Below are positions 53,516 through 63,744 of a stretch of DNA of 64,000 nucleotides, in pieces. Both the position numbers and the translations under genes were made by a program. Positions within the stretch are counted from its first letter, which is position 1, and each line of letters starts with the position of its first letter. Under the pieces are notes generated by a model that saw only the letters and a list, made by a program, of their open reading frames with translations, was not told where the DNA came from and searched no databases. This DNA is from Bacteroidota bacterium (GTDB taxonomy: Bacteria; Bacteroidota; Bacteroidia; B-17B0; Aurantibacillaceae): positions 1-64,000 of the forward strand of contig SYAL01000017.1 of the NCBI GenBank assembly GCA_005787585.1, read 5' to 3'.

Positions 53516-54121
53516 TTGGATATTCAAGAAAAAATATTAAAAACTGCTTTACATTTATTTTTTAAATACGGTATTAAACACGTAACAATGGATGATATTG
53601 CTAAAGAATTAAGTATATCAAAAAAAACTATTTATCAGTTTTATAAAGAAAAAGACGATTTAGTAACTCAATTGTTTGATTCCGAAATGAAACAACACGA
53701 GCATGATTTTCAAGAATTTAATAAATCTGCAACTGATCCTATTCACGAAATGATTCTTATTTCGAATAAAATGAAAACTTTTATGCAAAACATAAACCCT
53801 ATGTTTTTTATTGATCTTAAAAAATTTTATCCTACTGCTTTTAATCGTTTTCAATCTTTTAAACAAAACTTTGCATACAAGAATACTTTAAGTAATTTAA
53901 AAGTTGGAATGATTCAAGGGTATTATCGTTCTGATATTGAACCTGAATTTGTATCTCATTTCCGATTAAATCAAATAGATGTATTGATGTTTGGAAATTC
54001 TTTTTCTTTTGAAAAAGTTAGCTTTGCAAAATCATACGAATTAACCTTAGATATGTTTGTTTATGGTATTTGCACTTTAAAAGGCCATAAATTATTTGAT
54101 AATTATAAAAAATTAATTTAA
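53516..54121 (+). CDS. TetR/AcrR family transcriptional regulator
   Basis: 201 residues. The N-terminal helix-turn-helix is canonical: ILKTALHLFFKYGIKHVTMDDIAKELSISKKTIYQFYKEKDDLV (split here: helix 2 near 25-32, recognition helix near 36-45). The C-terminal domain is helical and unique to the subgroup. The TTG at 53516 is the start; there is no ATG in a good position. It precedes the TolC-adaptor-RND genes by 55 bases and probably represses them, as is usual for this layout. No operator palindrome was recognised with confidence. Drug or signal unknown. Confidence 0.92.
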   Translation: MDIQEKILKTALHLFFKYGIKHVTMDDIAKELSISKKTIYQFYKEKDDLVTQLFDSEMKQHEHDFQEFNKSATDPIHEMILISNKMKTFMQNINPMFFIDLKKFYPTAFNRFQSFKQNFAYKNTLSNLKVGMIQGYYRSDIEPEFVSHFRLNQIDVLMFGNSFSFEKVSFAKSYELTLDMFVYGICTLKGHKLFDNYKKLI

Positions 54122-54176: not shown

Positions 54177-55541
54177 ATGATAAATTTTAAACACTATACA
54201 ATATTCATAGCTCACTTTGTTTTATTAATTAAGTTAAATGCTCAAAAAATTAATACCAAAGTTTTTAGTTTGCAACAAGCCATCGATTTTTCTCTTAAAA
54301 ACAGTCCAAATTATTTAAATGCCGAATTAGATTTAAAAAACGCCAATTATCGACGAAAAGAAATTACTGGTATTGGCCTACCTCAGATAAATTCAAGCAT
54401 CGATTTAAAAGATTATATAGATATTCCAACTTCTTTATTACCCGCACAAATCTTTGGAGGTCCATTAGGCTCATATCTTCCAGTTAAATTTGGCACTAAA
54501 TATAATAGTACTGCAGGTTTTTCTGCTTCTCAATTAATTTTTAGTAGCGACTATATTTTTGGGTTAAAGGCTTCTCAAGAATTTATGAATTTATCTAAAA
54601 TTAACTTATCCCGAACTAAATCAGATTTAGTTGCTCAGGTTTCAAAAGCTTACTACAATGTAATTATAAATAATGAACGAATTAAATTATTAGAAGCTAA
54701 TATATTACGCTTAAAAAAGATTTTTGACGATACCAAAGCTTTTAATCAGCAGGGTTTTGCCGAGTTAATTGATGTAGAGAGATTAGAAGTTCAATACAAT
54801 AATTTGGTAACCGAAAAAGATAAAATCGTTAAATTAATTGGTTTGTCCGAAACAATGCTAAAATTTCAGATGGGATATAAGTTAAATGATTCTATTTTTT
54901 TATCCCAATCTCTTCCCGAAATTTCAGATCAGTTCGAAGAATTAAATGTTTCTAAAATTGATATATCTAAACGTCCCGAATACCAATTAATTCAATCTCA
55001 ACAATCTCTTTTTGATATTGATGTAAAAAGAATGAAATGGGGTTTCTTACCAACAATTGTGGCCTATGGAGCTTTACAATATAATGCTCAACGAACAAGG
55101 TTTAATTTATTAGATTTTGACCAAAATGATATTAATAAACAATGGTATCAAGTTTCATTAATTGGTTTTACTTTAAATATGCCAATTTTTTCGGGTATGC
55201 AAAGAATTAATAAATTAGAACAAGCAAAAATAGTTGCACTTAAAAATAAAAACACTCTAGTTAATCTGCAAATGGCTGCCGAATTTGAAGCAACAGCTGC
55301 CAGCATTTCATATAGCAACGCATATTCCAGTTTAATTATTCAAAGAAAAAATATGATTCTGGCCCAACATATTTACGATGTAGCACAAAAAAAATATCAA
55401 AGTGGAGTAGGTAGTAATTTAGAAATTGTTAATGCCGAAACCTCATTAAAAGAAGCTCAAACAAATTATTATAATGCAAGCTTCGATATGATTGTAGCAA
55501 AAATTGATTATCAAAAAGCAATAGGAACTTTAGTTAAATAA
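54177..55541 (+). CDS. TolC family outer membrane efflux protein
   Basis: Trimeric outer membrane channel of a tripartite pump. 454 residues with a signal peptide (ending LLIKLNAQ). Two OEP repeats of long helices, each starting with a typical segment (SLQQAIDFSLKNSPNYLNAELDLKNA and later IVALKNKNTLVNLQMAAEFEATAA), with QKKYQSGVGSNLEIVNAETSLKEAQTNY near the end being the most conserved part. It is the first pump gene after the TetR gene and lies 23 bases before the adaptor. Substrate unknown. Confidence 0.93.
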   Translation: MINFKHYTIFIAHFVLLIKLNAQKINTKVFSLQQAIDFSLKNSPNYLNAELDLKNANYRRKEITGIGLPQINSSIDLKDYIDIPTSLLPAQIFGGPLGSYLPVKFGTKYNSTAGFSASQLIFSSDYIFGLKASQEFMNLSKINLSRTKSDLVAQVSKAYYNVIINNERIKLLEANILRLKKIFDDTKAFNQQGFAELIDVERLEVQYNNLVTEKDKIVKLIGLSETMLKFQMGYKLNDSIFLSQSLPEISDQFEELNVSKIDISKRPEYQLIQSQQSLFDIDVKRMKWGFLPTIVAYGALQYNAQRTRFNLLDFDQNDINKQWYQVSLIGFTLNMPIFSGMQRINKLEQAKIVALKNKNTLVNLQMAAEFEATAASISYSNAYSSLIIQRKNMILAQHIYDVAQKKYQSGVGSNLEIVNAETSLKEAQTNYYNASFDMIVAKIDYQKAIGTLVK

Positions 55542-55564: not shown

Positions 55565-56725
55565 ATGACATCAAATGATTTTAGCGTTTCTTTCGCCCCT
55601 GTTAAAAGTAATTATTTAAAAAATTTTACTATTCTATTTTTATTTATTGTTTCATTGTATTCTTGCAATAGCTCTATTGATAATAAAGCCAATCTTGAAA
55701 AACTAAAAAAGCAAAAAGTAGATTTAGAAACTAAAATAGCAGCCTTAGAAGAAGAATTAAAAAAATCAGATACAAGTTCTTTAAACGATAAAAAAACAGA
55801 AGTTTCTATAATGAGTCTTGTACCTCAAATTTTTAAAACTTTTATTGAGGTTCAAGGCAGGGTAGATGCCGAAGAGAGCGTTTCTCTGTCAAGTGAAATA
55901 CCAGGTACAATTATAAAAATTAATGTAAACCCTGGCGATAATGTTTTAAAAAATCAGGTTTTAGCAGAAACAGACACGCGAATTATTCAGCAACAATTAC
56001 AAGATTTAGAAACTAATTACGAACTAGCTAAAGAAGTTTTTTTTAAACAAGAAAATTTATGGACCGAAAAAATAGGCACCGAAATTCAATTTTTACAAGC
56101 CAAAACAAATAAAGAAAGTTTAGAGAAAAAAATATCCATGATTCAAGAGCAACTCAAAATGAGTAAAATTATATCGCCTATTAATGGAACCGTTGATGGC
56201 ATAAATATCAAAATAGGTCAGCCTGTTTTTCCAGGAATGGCAGCTATTAGTGTTGTTAATTTTAATAAATTAAAAGTCAAAGCAGAGGTAGCCGAAAGCT
56301 TCGTCTCTAAAATTAAAAATGGTAATGAAGTATTACTCATTTTTCCCGATATGAATGATTCTGTTTTTTCTAAAGTAACATACTCTTCTCGCACCATTAA
56401 TGCCCTAAGCCGCACTTTTGCCATTGAAGTGGCATTAAATTCTAATAAAGAATTTCAACCAAATATGGTAGCTAAATTAAAAATAAATGATTACAAATCT
56501 TCAGCGCCTCTGATAGTTATTCCAATTAAATTTATTCAAAAAACTACCAACGATAGTTTTGTAATGATTGCTGAAAATGGAAAAGTAGTTAATAAAAAAA
56601 TTAGTATAGCAAATCAATATAATGGAAATGCCGAAATAATATCAGGATTAAATAATGGCGATTTATTAATTACCGATGGATACGATTTAGTATTCGAGGG
56701 AGATAATATAATCATAAAAAAATAA
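55565..56725 (+). CDS. RND efflux periplasmic adaptor (HlyD/AcrA family), lipoprotein
   Basis: 386 residues linking TolC to the permease. N-terminal 24 polar residues precede a hydrophobic stretch and a lipobox-like SLYSC (Cys about 36). A coiled coil (about 45-65) is followed by the biotinyl-lipoyl domain with VDAEESVSLSSEIPGTIIKINVNPGDNV (about 95-122 split), a helical hairpin to about 200 and the second lipoyl half (ISPINGTVDGINIKIGQPV). C-terminal membrane-proximal domain ends in a beta strand (LVFEGDNIIIKK). Sits between TolC and the RND permease (59 bases), fitting one operon. Confidence 0.93.
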   Translation: MTSNDFSVSFAPVKSNYLKNFTILFLFIVSLYSCNSSIDNKANLEKLKKQKVDLETKIAALEEELKKSDTSSLNDKKTEVSIMSLVPQIFKTFIEVQGRVDAEESVSLSSEIPGTIIKINVNPGDNVLKNQVLAETDTRIIQQQLQDLETNYELAKEVFFKQENLWTEKIGTEIQFLQAKTNKESLEKKISMIQEQLKMSKIISPINGTVDGINIKIGQPVFPGMAAISVVNFNKLKVKAEVAESFVSKIKNGNEVLLIFPDMNDSVFSKVTYSSRTINALSRTFAIEVALNSNKEFQPNMVAKLKINDYKSSAPLIVIPIKFIQKTTNDSFVMIAENGKVVNKKISIANQYNGNAEIISGLNNGDLLITDGYDLVFEGDNIIIKK

Positions 56726-56784: not shown

Positions 56785-58278
56785 ATGTTAGAAAAATTTA
56801 AAGAATTTAAACCTTCTAGTTGGGCTATAGAAAATAAATTAACTGTTTATTTAATTACTATTTTTATTGCTATTGCTGGTATTATGGCATACAATTCTTT
56901 GCCTAAAGAAAATTTCCCAGATATTACCGTTCCAACCATATACATTAGTACTGTCAATGGGGGCAATTCTCCCACCAACATCGAAAATACAATTACTAAA
57001 CCAATTGAAAAAAGATTAAAATCTATTTCGGGTATAAAAAAATTTAATAGCACTTCTTTACAAGATGTATCGGTAATTATAGTTGAGTTCCGAACCGATA
57101 TTAAGACTGATTTAGCTAAACAAAAAGTTAAAGATGCAGTAGACGAAGCTCGTTCCGATATGCCCCAAGTTCTCACTCGTGAGCCTGTGATAAAAGAAAT
57201 TGCTTTTTCAGAAATACCCATAATGTACATTAATATTTCTGGTAACTATGATTTAAAACAATTAAAAAAATATGCCGAAAATTTGCAGGAAGGCCTTGAA
57301 GGTTTAAAAGAAATTAATGAAGCTAAAATTGTTGGCGGACTCGATCGAGAAATTCAAGTTAACATTGACGTTTATAAACTACAAGCCGCCCAATTAACTT
57401 TGGGCGATATTCAAAGGGCAATTGGCCAAGAAAATTTATCAATCACCGGAGGTAATGTGCCTATTAATGGAATGAAACCAACCATTAATATAAAAAGTGA
57501 ATTTAAAAATCCAACTGAAATTGAAAATATTATTGTAACCTCTGCCGTTGGCGCTAAGTTATTTTTAAAAGATGTGGCTGAGGTAAAAGATGGCTTCAAA
57601 GAAAAAGAAAGCTACTCCAGTTCAAAAGGAAAAAATGTAATCACCCTCAATATAATTAAAAGATCTGGCGAAAATTTAATTGCTGCTGCCGATAAAATAA
57701 AAACTGTCATTGCCGAAATGAAAAAGAATGATTTTCCGAAAGGTATAGAAATTAATATTAGCGGCGATCAAAGTGCTCAAACTAAAACAACCCTTCAAGA
57801 TTTAATTAATACCATTATTATTGGCTTTATTTTAGTTACCATCGTACTCATGTTTTTTATGGGCGTTACCAATGCCTTGTTCGTGGCTTTATCTGTTCCC
57901 CTCTCTATGTTTATTGCTTTTTTATTAATGCCTGGTATTGGTTTTACTTTTAATATGATTGTACTTTTTGCTTTTTTATTAGCTCTTGGCATTGTTGTTG
58001 ATGATGCTATTGTTGTTATTGAAAATACTCATCGATTGTTTGCAAATGGTAAGCGTGATATTAAAACTGCGGCTAAAATGGCCGCAGGCGAAGTATTTTT
58101 ACCTGTACTTACCGGAACAGTAACTACCTTAGCTCCTTTTATACCTCTGGCATTTTGGACAGGCATTATTGGCAAATTCATGTATTTTTTACCCATTACT
58201 TTAATTATTTCTTTAGTCGCTTCTTTATTTGTGGCCTATATTATAAATCCTGTATTTGCAGTCGATTTTATGAAATAA
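56785..58278 (+). CDS. RND efflux permease, N-terminal half (ends at in-frame TAA)
   Basis: 497 residues of an AcrB-like pump, ending at TAA 58276-58278. Helix 1 (about 15-36), first porter part (40-330), then helices 2-6 (about 340-490) with the proton-relay Asp pair in LGIVVDDAIVVIENTHR (about 402-418). Typical permeases of this phylum are about 1,150 residues. The next frame, 58327-60249, is in the same reading frame and holds the missing half. Only one stop codon and 16 more codons separate them. The break lies between transmembrane helices 6 and 7. Either a nonsense mutation (for example AAA to TAA) or a real two-chain form. Part of the TetR-TolC-adaptor operon. Confidence 0.9.
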   Translation: MLEKFKEFKPSSWAIENKLTVYLITIFIAIAGIMAYNSLPKENFPDITVPTIYISTVNGGNSPTNIENTITKPIEKRLKSISGIKKFNSTSLQDVSVIIVEFRTDIKTDLAKQKVKDAVDEARSDMPQVLTREPVIKEIAFSEIPIMYINISGNYDLKQLKKYAENLQEGLEGLKEINEAKIVGGLDREIQVNIDVYKLQAAQLTLGDIQRAIGQENLSITGGNVPINGMKPTINIKSEFKNPTEIENIIVTSAVGAKLFLKDVAEVKDGFKEKESYSSSKGKNVITLNIIKRSGENLIAAADKIKTVIAEMKKNDFPKGIEINISGDQSAQTKTTLQDLINTIIIGFILVTIVLMFFMGVTNALFVALSVPLSMFIAFLLMPGIGFTFNMIVLFAFLLALGIVVDDAIVVIENTHRLFANGKRDIKTAAKMAAGEVFLPVLTGTVTTLAPFIPLAFWTGIIGKFMYFLPITLIISLVASLFVAYIINPVFAVDFMK

Positions 58279-58326
58279 CACGATGATGAAGCAAAAAATT
58301 ATGGTAAAATAAATAAAAAAGGTAAA

Positions 58327-60249
58327 ATGCAATTACTACTTTACGGAGTTCTTGCAGCAACTGCTTATGCTAGCGGCCATGTTGGTGTAGGTAATTTTAT
58401 TATTTTTCTCGGTCTCTTTTTAATTTTACACCGTTTTTGGCTTTATAAAGTAATTAATTCATGGCAATTTAAAGTTTGGCCTGCATTAGTTAACAGATAC
58501 GTTAAAGTGCTTAAATGGTGCCTTATTAAACCCTGGCGACCAGTAATTTACGTTATTTTGTTATTTATTTTTTCTATCGTTTTTTTTGTAGCTCGTGGCC
58601 CTAAAGTGGTGTTTTTTCCGCAAGGAGACCCAAATAATATTTATGTTTATCTTAAATTACCAGAAGGCACCGATCCCTATATTACCAATACTATTATGCG
58701 CCAAGTAGAAAATAAAGTAAACAGCGTTATTGGTAAAAATAATCCAATTGTCGAATCTATGATTAGTAATGTTACCATTGGGGTAACCGATCCAAGAGAT
58801 GGAGACCAAAATGCATATCCCAATAAAGGCAAAATCGCCATCGCTTTTGTGGAATACGAAAAACGAAATGGCCTATCTACAACAGATTATTTAACCAAAT
58901 TACAATCTTTAAATTGGCAAATTCCTGGGGCCGAAATAACCGTAAATCAAGAGCAAAATGGCCCACCACAAGCTAAACCAATTAGTATCGAAGTTTCTGG
59001 CGACGAATTTGACGAGCTTGTCAATAGTGCCAATCTTGTTAAAAAATTTATTCAAGATGCTAAAATAGATGGACTTGATAATCTAAAATCAGATTTTGTA
59101 GGAAATAAACCCGAAATTATTTTTGATATAGATCGCGAAAGAACCCAGCGAGAAGGTTTATCTACTTATCAATTAGCTATGGAAATTCGCGGTGCTGTTT
59201 ATGGCATTGAGGCAACTAAATTTAGAGATGTTGATGATGAATACCCCGTGCAGTTACGTTACAAGTTAGATCAACGTTCAGATATTGAAACTATTCGCAA
59301 TTTAAAAATTACTTACCGAGATATGAATATGGGTGGCATAGTAAGAACTGTTCCAATTTCTGCCGTTTGCAATATACGTTATGATAATACTTATGCGAGT
59401 ATCAAACGTAAAAATAACACTCGTTTAATTACGCTTTCTTCTGATGTTAAACAAGGCTACAACGCCAATGAGGTGGCTGAAAAAATTCAAAAGCTAGTCC
59501 TATCTTTTAAACCAGTAGGTAATGTAAATATTAAGTTTGGCGGGCAGGCCGAAGATCAAAAAGAAACCATGAGTTTTTTAAGTGGAGCAATGTTAAGTGC
59601 AATAGGCATTATGCTTTTGGTTTTAGTTGGTTTATTTAATTCTTTAGGTAAAACTATCATTATATTATCCGAAATTTTATTTAGTATTATAGGCGTGTTA
59701 TTAGGCGTTGGTTTATTTAAAATGGAAATGAGTATTGTAATGACTGGTGTCGGAATTATTGCCTTAGGAGGCATTGTTGTTAGAAACGGTATTTTGCTAG
59801 TTGAGTTTGCAGAGTTTGCTCGCTCAGGAGGGATGAGCTTATATGAAGCAACTGTTGAGGCTGGTCGCACTCGAATGACCCCTGTAATATTAACAGCAAT
59901 TGCCGCTGTTTTAGGATTAATTCCCTTAGCAGTGGGTTTAAATATTAATTTCGAATCTTTATTTACAAACTTTAACCCTCATATTTTCTTTGGAGGGGAT
60001 AGTGTTGTATTTTGGGGGCCTTTGAGCTGGACTATGATTTTTGGATTATTATTTGCTACGGCCTTAACTTTACTTTTAATTCCTTCGATGTATCTTATAA
60101 CAGAGAGATTAAAGCGAAAATCTAATATTATTTTAAATCATTTCGATTTCCCTAATGTAGCCATGTATATACCTTTTTTAATTTTAATTTTTAAAATTAT
60201 TTTGTTCATTAAGGGTAAAAAACTCAATTATGGCAATTTAGATGTCTAA
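58327..60249 (+). CDS. RND efflux permease, C-terminal half
   Basis: 640 residues continuing the permease in the same frame as 56785-58278. It has helices 7 and 8 (about 5-35 and 70-93), the second porter part (GPKVVFFPQGDPNNIYVYLKLPEGTD at about 94-119, split for quoting), and helices 9-12 with VGIIALGGIVVRNGILLVEFAEFA (about 480-503). The ATG at 58327 has an A-rich leader (AAAAAAGG), the style used for starts here, so reinitiation after the TAA is possible. The 16 codons in between (HDDEAKNYGKINKKGK) look like normal linker. Together with the first half the product would be about 1,154 residues. Confidence 0.88.
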   Translation: MQLLLYGVLAATAYASGHVGVGNFIIFLGLFLILHRFWLYKVINSWQFKVWPALVNRYVKVLKWCLIKPWRPVIYVILLFIFSIVFFVARGPKVVFFPQGDPNNIYVYLKLPEGTDPYITNTIMRQVENKVNSVIGKNNPIVESMISNVTIGVTDPRDGDQNAYPNKGKIAIAFVEYEKRNGLSTTDYLTKLQSLNWQIPGAEITVNQEQNGPPQAKPISIEVSGDEFDELVNSANLVKKFIQDAKIDGLDNLKSDFVGNKPEIIFDIDRERTQREGLSTYQLAMEIRGAVYGIEATKFRDVDDEYPVQLRYKLDQRSDIETIRNLKITYRDMNMGGIVRTVPISAVCNIRYDNTYASIKRKNNTRLITLSSDVKQGYNANEVAEKIQKLVLSFKPVGNVNIKFGGQAEDQKETMSFLSGAMLSAIGIMLLVLVGLFNSLGKTIIILSEILFSIIGVLLGVGLFKMEMSIVMTGVGIIALGGIVVRNGILLVEFAEFARSGGMSLYEATVEAGRTRMTPVILTAIAAVLGLIPLAVGLNINFESLFTNFNPHIFFGGDSVVFWGPLSWTMIFGLLFATALTLLLIPSMYLITERLKRKSNIILNHFDFPNVAMYIPFLILIFKIILFIKGKKLNYGNLDV

Positions 60250-60453: not shown

Positions 60454-63400
60454 ATGAAAAAAAATCTACCTAAAAACTTAATTAAAAAAACTGCCTTAGT
60501 TGCTGTCTTTTTTATTTTTGCATGCTTTTTTAATAATGTAAAAGCACAATATTGTTTGGCTCCTGCTTCAAACGTACAAATTTTTCCTACAACCACTTCT
60601 CAAACAACTGCAATTTACAATTCAGGTTCAAGAGCTTTTAATTTTAATGCTACCGCTGGTTGCTCTTATTATTTTGCTACTTGTGGTTTAGCTGGTGGTG
60701 CTGATACATATATACGTGTATACAGTCAAGCTTTTGGCGGTTCAGTTTTAGCTGGTTATGATGATAATTGTGGTGCAGAATCTCAAGGAACATGGGTTTG
60801 TCCCACAACAGGTGCCTATTCAGTTTTATTAACTAATTATTCGTGTGCGAGTTTAAATCAAAATACAAGAATGACTTATTCAAGCAATTGCGTTCAAACC
60901 CCCTGCTCTGCTCTGATTTATGGTAGTTCTAGTGCTACCTCTTCCTTTGACGAAGAAATTTTTAATGTAACCTTTGGTACTTTAAATAATACAAGTAATT
61001 GTGCATCTACTGCTCCTGGTCCAGGTTCAGTAAATAGAATGTATAGCAACTACACTGGTGCTGTTGCAGCACCAGCTGTTAATATTGGTTCTACTATTAA
61101 CTATGGTGTTACTGTAGGTACTTGTAATGGTTGGTATGGTGTTCAAACAAAAATTTATATCGATTATAATCAAGATGGTTTATTTACTGGCGCAAACGAA
61201 AACGTTGCTACCATTGCATCATCCAATAACGTAGCCAATACCGGCAATATAATTATACCTGCCGGTGCAACTCCTGGTATTACTAGAATGAGAGTTGTTG
61301 CAGTTGAAGGAACTGTGCCTGGGCCGACTGGTAATTATACTTGGGGTGAAACCGAAGACTATTGTATTAATATTGTTGCTGGTAACCCTTGTAGTGGTGT
61401 TCCTGCTGCATTAACCCCTTCTATTTCATCACCTCAGGGCTGCCCTAATGTTGCTTTTACTTTAAATACAACAAGTTTGTCTGCCTTTACAGGTCTATCT
61501 TATCAATGGCAATCTTCTCCAAACAACAATGGCCCTTGGGCTAATGTAGGTGGTGCGGGAGCATTATTAAATACTTCTACAACTACTACAACATATTATC
61601 AATTGGTGAGTACTTGTGCAAATGGTGGGCTTACAGCTTCCACCTCAGTGGTTTCATTTTCTCCATTGGTTAACCCTTGTGCTTGTAATCCATATGCACC
61701 ATCTATAGCTGGTATAGCTGGCGACGAAGAAATCTTAACAGTTTCAGTTGGAACCATGACTAATATTAGTACTTGTGTTTCTGTTGGGCCTGGACCTGGT
61801 TCAATTGCTCAGCGATATGCTAATTATACCTATTTTGTAGCAGCTCCCTCTGTTTGTACTGGACAGGTTCCTTTTTCAGTCACATTGGGTACTTGTGGTG
61901 GTTGGTACGGTGTTGGGATGAATATATACGTAGATATTAATCAAAATGGTAATTTTACTGATCCAGGTGAAATGGTTTATTCTAATGGTGCAACTGTTAA
62001 TGGAGTTAATTCAGGATTTTTAAATATTCCAAATACAGCAAGTGTTGGAGTGACACGAATGAGAGTTGTTGCAGTAGAAGGTTCTGTACCTGGTCCTGCA
62101 AATCCATATAATTGGGGTGAGACTGAAGATTATTGTATTAATATCTTACCAGCCCCATCTGTTACAATTACAGGAGGTGGAAATATCATTTGTGGTAACA
62201 CTATTACACTTACTCCTGTTGGAGCCACAAGTTATACTTATAATAGTTTAAGTGGCCCTTCTTTTACTGTTCCACTTCCACCATATACTCAAACATACAC
62301 ACCTCTTGCCAATACCGTATACACTGTTCTTGGTACTGGTGCTAATGGTTGTGTTTCTGTTAACCAGGTTAGCGTTTCTGTTATTTCAGGAACAAATATG
62401 GTAATTACTCCTTCAACAGCAACTGCTTGTCCTAATTCTCCATTTACTTTTACTGCATCAGGTTCTGTAACTTATTCTTGGTCTAACAATACCTACACCA
62501 ATACAGCAAATATTATTGCATCTGGCCCTCTATCAAGTATAATATGCAGTGTAGTAGGTACAAATTCAATTGGCTGTTCATCTTCTCAAACTGCTACATT
62601 ATATGCTTATGGATTGCCGACTGTAGCTGTTACACCTACACTGGTAACTGTATGTGCATTATCTCCAGTTACGTTTACAGCATCTGGTGCATTAACATAT
62701 ACTTGGGCTAATAATAATACAGGTTCTACATCTGCATTCACCCCATCAGCACCCACTCAATTTTCTGTTCTCGGATCTGATGCAAATGGTTGCAGTTCAT
62801 CTGCGAGTGCTATTGTTTTAACTGATCCAGCCCCTTCAATTTCAATCACAGCCAGTTCTCTTTTAGTTTGTAACTCAACTTCGTTAACATTAACTGGTTC
62901 AGGTGCCAATTCATACACTTGGAGTGTAGGTGGAAATAATCTTAATACAATAGTTACGCCAACAGCTTCAACTACTTATACTTTATTCGGTACGGGGGCT
63001 AATAATTGTGTAGGATCCAATACAATCATAATTTCAACAAACCCTATCCCAATTATAGTAATAACACCTCCCTCAGCATCAATTTGTTTGGGTGGCTCAT
63101 CAAGTTTTTCGGTAACTGGTGCTATTTCTTACACTTGGAGCAATGGAAGTACTAATAACACTCAAATCTTTTCTCCAAATTCAACTACAGTTTATTCTGT
63201 AATTGCGGAAGACACATTAGGATGTATTGGTAATGCAACATTATCTATTATTGTTAATCCTTTACCAGTAATTACGATTAATCCTGCGGCTCCAGAAATT
63301 TGCAGAGGTGATATAGCAACCATTACACCAAATGGAGCAACCACCTATACTTGGATGCCAGGAAATATTGTTGCTAATAGCTTTACAGTTTCTCCTTTAT

Positions 63401-63744
63401 CAACTGGGTTTTACTCTGTGACTGGTACAAACAGCAACTCTTGTGTAAACAACCTATCATTTTTGATTAAAGTAAATAGTTGTACTGGAATAGAAGCTAA
63501 TACTAATGGACTCCAAAATACTTTTATTTTCCCAAATCCAACCAAAGGTTTGTTTACCGCTAAATTTGAATTTGATGGCGAGAAAACAATAAGTGTATTA
63601 GATGGTTTAGGTAAATTAATAGTGAAGTCAACAACACAAAATACTTCTGAAACATTTAACTTAAATGGATATGCAAAAGGTATTTATATTGTTAAAATAG
63701 ATACTAAATTGGGTTCAGCTAACTATAAATTGGTTATTGAATAA
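60454..63744 (+). CDS. Secreted adhesin-like protein with GEVED domains, Ig-like repeats and a type IX sorting domain
   Basis: 1096 residues. Signal peptide 1-31 (VFFIFACFFNNVKAQ). A Cys-rich module covers about 32-150. Two GEVED domains lie at about 164-300 and 421-556, both ending in GETEDYCINI. Six repeats of 72-80 residues follow, starting near 568, 648, 723, 796, 868 and 941, each with a Cys near the start and a TYTW/TYSW-like core strand. The C-terminal 75 residues (from IFPNPTKG at about 1022) are a type A sorting domain for the type IX secretion system, with a YAKGIYIVKI motif. It is richer in G+C, Thr, Ser and Gly than its neighbours. It should be released to or anchored on the cell surface. 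Ligand unknown. Terminator at 63765-63797. Confidence 0.92.
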   Translation: MKKNLPKNLIKKTALVAVFFIFACFFNNVKAQYCLAPASNVQIFPTTTSQTTAIYNSGSRAFNFNATAGCSYYFATCGLAGGADTYIRVYSQAFGGSVLAGYDDNCGAESQGTWVCPTTGAYSVLLTNYSCASLNQNTRMTYSSNCVQTPCSALIYGSSSATSSFDEEIFNVTFGTLNNTSNCASTAPGPGSVNRMYSNYTGAVAAPAVNIGSTINYGVTVGTCNGWYGVQTKIYIDYNQDGLFTGANENVATIASSNNVANTGNIIIPAGATPGITRMRVVAVEGTVPGPTGNYTWGETEDYCINIVAGNPCSGVPAALTPSISSPQGCPNVAFTLNTTSLSAFTGLSYQWQSSPNNNGPWANVGGAGALLNTSTTTTTYYQLVSTCANGGLTASTSVVSFSPLVNPCACNPYAPSIAGIAGDEEILTVSVGTMTNISTCVSVGPGPGSIAQRYANYTYFVAAPSVCTGQVPFSVTLGTCGGWYGVGMNIYVDINQNGNFTDPGEMVYSNGATVNGVNSGFLNIPNTASVGVTRMRVVAVEGSVPGPANPYNWGETEDYCINILPAPSVTITGGGNIICGNTITLTPVGATSYTYNSLSGPSFTVPLPPYTQTYTPLANTVYTVLGTGANGCVSVNQVSVSVISGTNMVITPSTATACPNSPFTFTASGSVTYSWSNNTYTNTANIIASGPLSSIICSVVGTNSIGCSSSQTATLYAYGLPTVAVTPTLVTVCALSPVTFTASGALTYTWANNNTGSTSAFTPSAPTQFSVLGSDANGCSSSASAIVLTDPAPSISITASSLLVCNSTSLTLTGSGANSYTWSVGGNNLNTIVTPTASTTYTLFGTGANNCVGSNTIIISTNPIPIIVITPPSASICLGGSSSFSVTGAISYTWSNGSTNNTQIFSPNSTTVYSVIAEDTLGCIGNATLSIIVNPLPVITINPAAPEICRGDIATITPNGATTYTWMPGNIVANSFTVSPLSTGFYSVTGTNSNSCVNNLSFLIKVNSCTGIEANTNGLQNTFIFPNPTKGLFTAKFEFDGEKTISVLDGLGKLIVKSTTQNTSETFNLNGYAKGIYIVKIDTKLGSANYKLVIE

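Follow-up and report, generated by a model that had tools for sequence, protein, structure and literature searches.

The locus analysed here raises the question of whether an RND permease gene that is interrupted by a stop codon between its two halves is a recently broken gene or encodes a pump made of two chains. The gene lies within a 64,000-nucleotide stretch of DNA (hereafter the window) on contig C8 of a Bacteroidota metagenome assembly (1.76 Mb, 57 contigs, 73% complete). Two open reading frames on the forward strand, 56785-58278 (497 aa) and 58327-60249 (640 aa), lie in the same frame and are kept apart only by the TAA at 58276-58278 and exactly 16 sense codons (58279-58326); these re-derived coordinates agree with the initial annotation, which had described a shared frame broken by a single in-frame TAA followed by 16 sense codons. 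A scan of the whole genome recovered one copy, at this locus, with one TAA inside a 1156-codon frame, and the gene (56785-60249) contains no further stop or frameshift.

Both reading frames are clearly parts of an RND permease. The first matches the Pfam profile ACR_tran (PF00873) over positions 3-486 (369 bits, 4.5e-110, against a cut-off of 28 bits) and comprises, up to the premature TAA, TM1-6, the first porter half and the two Asp residues of TM4, while the second matches positions 507-983 (235 bits, 1.5e-69) and comprises a hydrophobic pair belonging to the linker, TM7-12, the second porter half and the Arg-Asn of TM10. When the TAA is read through, the match rises to 588 bits over profile positions 3-1019, and both the TM4 Asp-Asp and the TM10 Arg-Asn motifs are intact. 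The best NCBIfam match is NF033617 (RND_permease_2) and the nearest solved sequence is MexK; each half scanned alone falls far under the NCBIfam subfamily cut-offs. The gene is the last in a TetR-TolC-MFP-RND operon, also on the forward strand, that begins with a TetR-family regulator (53516-54121; Pfam TetR_N, 2.6e-11), kept upstream of the pump in relatives, and continues with a TolC-like outer-membrane factor (54177-55541; Pfam OEP, 3e-35; 92% identical in the closest relative, G004) and a membrane-fusion (adaptor) protein (55565-56725; TIGR01730 RND_mfp, 144 bits, over the cut-off, and Pfam HlyD_D23). With these upstream genes, the operon encodes a complete tripartite efflux system, for which the RND gene supplies the permease. 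It resembles HAE1/AcrB-type permeases in matching the ACR_tran profile over both halves, in having adaptor and TolC-like genes in the operon and in its TM4 Asp-Asp pair, but differs from them in the single TAA, in its length of about 1154 residues and in a linker that carries two additional hydrophobic segments. Because the chain, uninterrupted in the relatives, is broken by the TAA at 58276, we file the gene as an interrupted RND member rather than a working one, and the two reading frames should be annotated as one interrupted RND gene, not as two half-transporters.

In the assembled part of the window genome (73% complete) no full-length ACR_tran permease was found besides this one, and G004 likewise yielded one; loss of the pump would therefore be somewhat surprising. 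Several such permeases are found in a larger related genome (G008, 3.7 Mb) versus one in G004 (2.5 Mb) and in the window genome, and the smaller genomes seem to have retained just this pump.

The origin of the stop was sought in the homologous codon of relatives. In G004, a metagenome-assembled genome (record CAMCZO010000013.1) whose protein is 94% identical over the read-through sequence, this codon is TCA (Ser), one step from a stop, and the other relatives readable at the site have TCG, TCT, ACG, ACC or CCN, encoding Ser, Thr or Pro. The change from AAA to TAA proposed in the initial annotation is thus rejected, and one substitution of C by A at 58277, turning TCA into TAA, is the simplest history; the comparison with close relatives that the same annotation had called for returned a sense codon in every alignable relative. 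The G004 record is titled Chitinophaga pinensis, yet it is a 2.5-Mb metagenome-assembled genome of the window's genus, and the name looks mislabelled.

With regard to position, the AlphaFold model of an intact relative was of poor quality (pLDDT 59); TM borders were taken from hydropathy, which places the end of TM6 near residue 490, an extra pair of hydrophobic stretches (about 517-535 and 539-557) after it, and TM7 near 587-605. The TAA falls in a basic loop ahead of the extra segments, and the 16 codons that follow it encode a conserved Lys-rich cytoplasmic linker, HDDEAKNYGKINKKGK, which is the same coding segment in intact relatives. The two extra segments (58327-58500) are conserved in relatives of this Bacteroidota RND clade, so that the second reading frame begins just before them and not directly at TM7. 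The earlier placement of the break after helix 6 and before helix 7 therefore agrees with hydropathy, with the qualification that two further segments separate the start of the second reading frame from TM7. Of 452 possible one-step nonsense changes in the gene, 12 (about 2.7%) fall within residues 497-514; the border position is thus mildly unusual: a random stop would seldom fall there, but with a single event this is not compelling.

In AcrB, the proton relay is formed by D407 and D408 (TM4) with K940 (TM10) and R971 (TM11) (PMC8277102). The equivalent motifs of the window protein begin at residue 404, ahead of the stop, and at residue 998, beyond it. Since the relay residues are spread over both halves, neither half alone should be able to pump.

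Split orthologs were looked for in relatives. A homologue of the second half is present in all 40 relatives searched, and those examined have a single open frame of about 1155 codons. In a class survey of 247 genomes the gene was present in 200 (E <= 1e-100), and among the matches listed, the stronger ones, the open frame spans at least 1087 codons in all but the window genome, G175, G067, G258, G113 and G081. These short frames are explained by contig ends in the cases of G175, G067, G258 and G113 and by frameshifts in G081, a single-contig genome (L072, G081:C1:267000-274000) in which the orthologous pump gene is broken by apparent frameshifts, perhaps long-read indel errors. No ortholog split at this border was found among the 40 relatives or among the matches listed in the class survey, which rules out a split common to the relatives, and conservation of the split in more than one lineage was likewise absent from the listed matches. 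No close relatives were found in viral contigs, and a literature search on split RND pumps returned nothing relevant.

Purifying selection on both halves, which the initial annotation had set as a check, was found: relative to G004, the dN/dS values are 0.049 (first half), 0.076 (second half) and 0.066 (whole gene). Among about 40 gene pairs compared between the two genomes, most have dN/dS of 0.04-0.23, the RND gene being low among them. No other pair is interrupted internally by a stop; in three of them a stop lies close to an end, which reflects the choice of start or end. When amino-acid changes specific to one lineage are assigned by means of outgroups, the split between the window genome and G004 is 25:5 in the RND gene and 31:15 in the four control genes compared (Fisher p = 0.18), or 17:4 versus 19:8 when only columns invariant in the outgroups are counted, the window-genome departures from such columns being conservative. 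Relaxed selection on one half was rejected, as the two dN/dS values differ little and the excess of window-genome changes extends to the control genes; the pump shows no clear relaxation beyond the general pace of the lineage. The 31:15 ratio in the control genes suggests that the window genome belongs to a faster-evolving lineage than G004. The stop is so recent that the halves would look constrained whether they still function or not, and constraint is therefore no argument for a working split.

The sequence after the stop was inspected for signals of restart or read-through. Over the 20 bases that precede ATG 58327, A makes up 75%, a share not reached at any of the 206 internal ATGs or 31 gene starts examined in the window, and A is present at -3 and -12, positions at which A is a positive determinant of initiation in Flavobacterium johnsoniae (PMC6847099). 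The position-specific start score of this ATG is moderate, the same score being reached by 12% of internal ATGs. In the intact gene of G004 the leader bases are the same save for one synonymous change and encode the conserved KINKKGK linker, and the Met is not conserved, being Leu in G008 and G019; the leader is therefore inherited coding sequence, not a selected start. The A-rich leader pointed out in the initial annotation is thus real, yet it is a Lys-rich coding segment with no sign of selection as a start. Reinitiation at ATG 58327 is possible, judging by this sequence context. A new promoter for the second half was rejected, as nothing between the halves matches a Bacteroidota-type promoter pattern, and so was an RNA element driving read-through, as no RNA structure was detected downstream of the TAA (z = -0.24). 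The co-translated half-pumps or read-through that had been offered as alternatives thus gained no positive support, there being no split relative, no conserved ATG, a coding leader and no RNA structure.

Taken jointly as a true allele or as an assembly or sequencing error, a private and very recent nonsense change in an otherwise normal RND gene very probably accounts for the locus. The weights that we give to the four readings considered are judgements, not computed values, and these two together take by far the larger part. A true loss-of-function allele has a somewhat better than even chance and we regard it as more likely than an error in the consensus. According to this explanation, one base change would have turned the Ser codon (TCA in G004) of a full-length HAE1-type gene (56785-60249) into TAA where the gene encodes the cytoplasmic linker joining its halves, privately to this assembled genome and too recently for decay to have followed; the TAA would end translation and leave an N-terminal half that could not pump, the relay residues being in both halves. 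The fresh single-base nonsense change suggested in the initial annotation is borne out by the intact relatives, the constraint on both halves and the lack of other lesions. As in private nonsense alleles and recent bacterial pseudogenes, there are one base change, an intact sister genome and no further decay, and the present case differs from these in nothing but the domain-border position. The location of the stop, in the only part of the gene that might tolerate a split, counts against this explanation, as does the unusually A-rich leader after the stop, which suits Bacteroidota initiation. It is also conceivable, at lower probability than a true allele, that the organism carries an intact gene and that the TAA is a mistake in the consensus of a 57-contig, 73%-complete metagenome assembly; in favour of such an error are a stop that is isolated, of a single base and without any decay, and a gene that is otherwise strongly constrained and has no second full-length ACR_tran permease beside it among those found. 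However, no other stop or frameshift occurs in the about 40 gene pairs, and the assembly is therefore not generally error-prone.

It is improbable that the N-terminal half ending at 58278 and a second half restarted at ATG 58327 reassemble into a functional permease. SecD and SecF do form one RND-type unit from two chains (2 x 6 TM; PMC8277102), with the break at the same pseudo-symmetry border, and such an arrangement would fit with the border position, with the A-rich leader (A at -3 and -12), with constraint acting on each half and with the finding of no second full-length ACR_tran permease in the assembled window genome or in G004. The SecD/SecF arrangement, however, is ancient and conserved, whereas the window gene has no split ortholog among the matches listed from about 200 genomes carrying it, its leader is nearly identical in the intact G004 gene, its start score is moderate and its Met is not conserved, and after so recent a change the halves would look constrained, be the split functional or not. 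That the TAA is real and fixed in the lineage, the two half-permeases working through the restart as a very young HAE1-type split, is rated a little lower still, and it is equally doubtful that the A-rich linker codons serve as a ready-made Bacteroidota initiation region. Were the split real and functional, AcrB-type pumps would prove to tolerate interruption at the pseudo-symmetry border, and A-rich Lys codons would prove able, in Bacteroidota, to serve as a ready-made start region. Programmed read-through or recoding of the TAA is the least probable reading by far: the frame is open for 656 codons past the stop, but no downstream RNA structure was detected, no relative has a stop at this codon, and TAA also terminates this gene at 60247-60249 and is therefore not reassigned. 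The locus thus looks like an ordinary recent loss of function by mutation, or an assembly error, with no evolved two-piece pump, and as it stands a single nonsense change private to one metagenome-assembled genome has little significance.

Downstream of the pump, 60454-63744 encodes a 1096-aa, putatively secreted, repeat-rich protein whose C-terminus resembles, by eye, a type IX secretion sorting domain.
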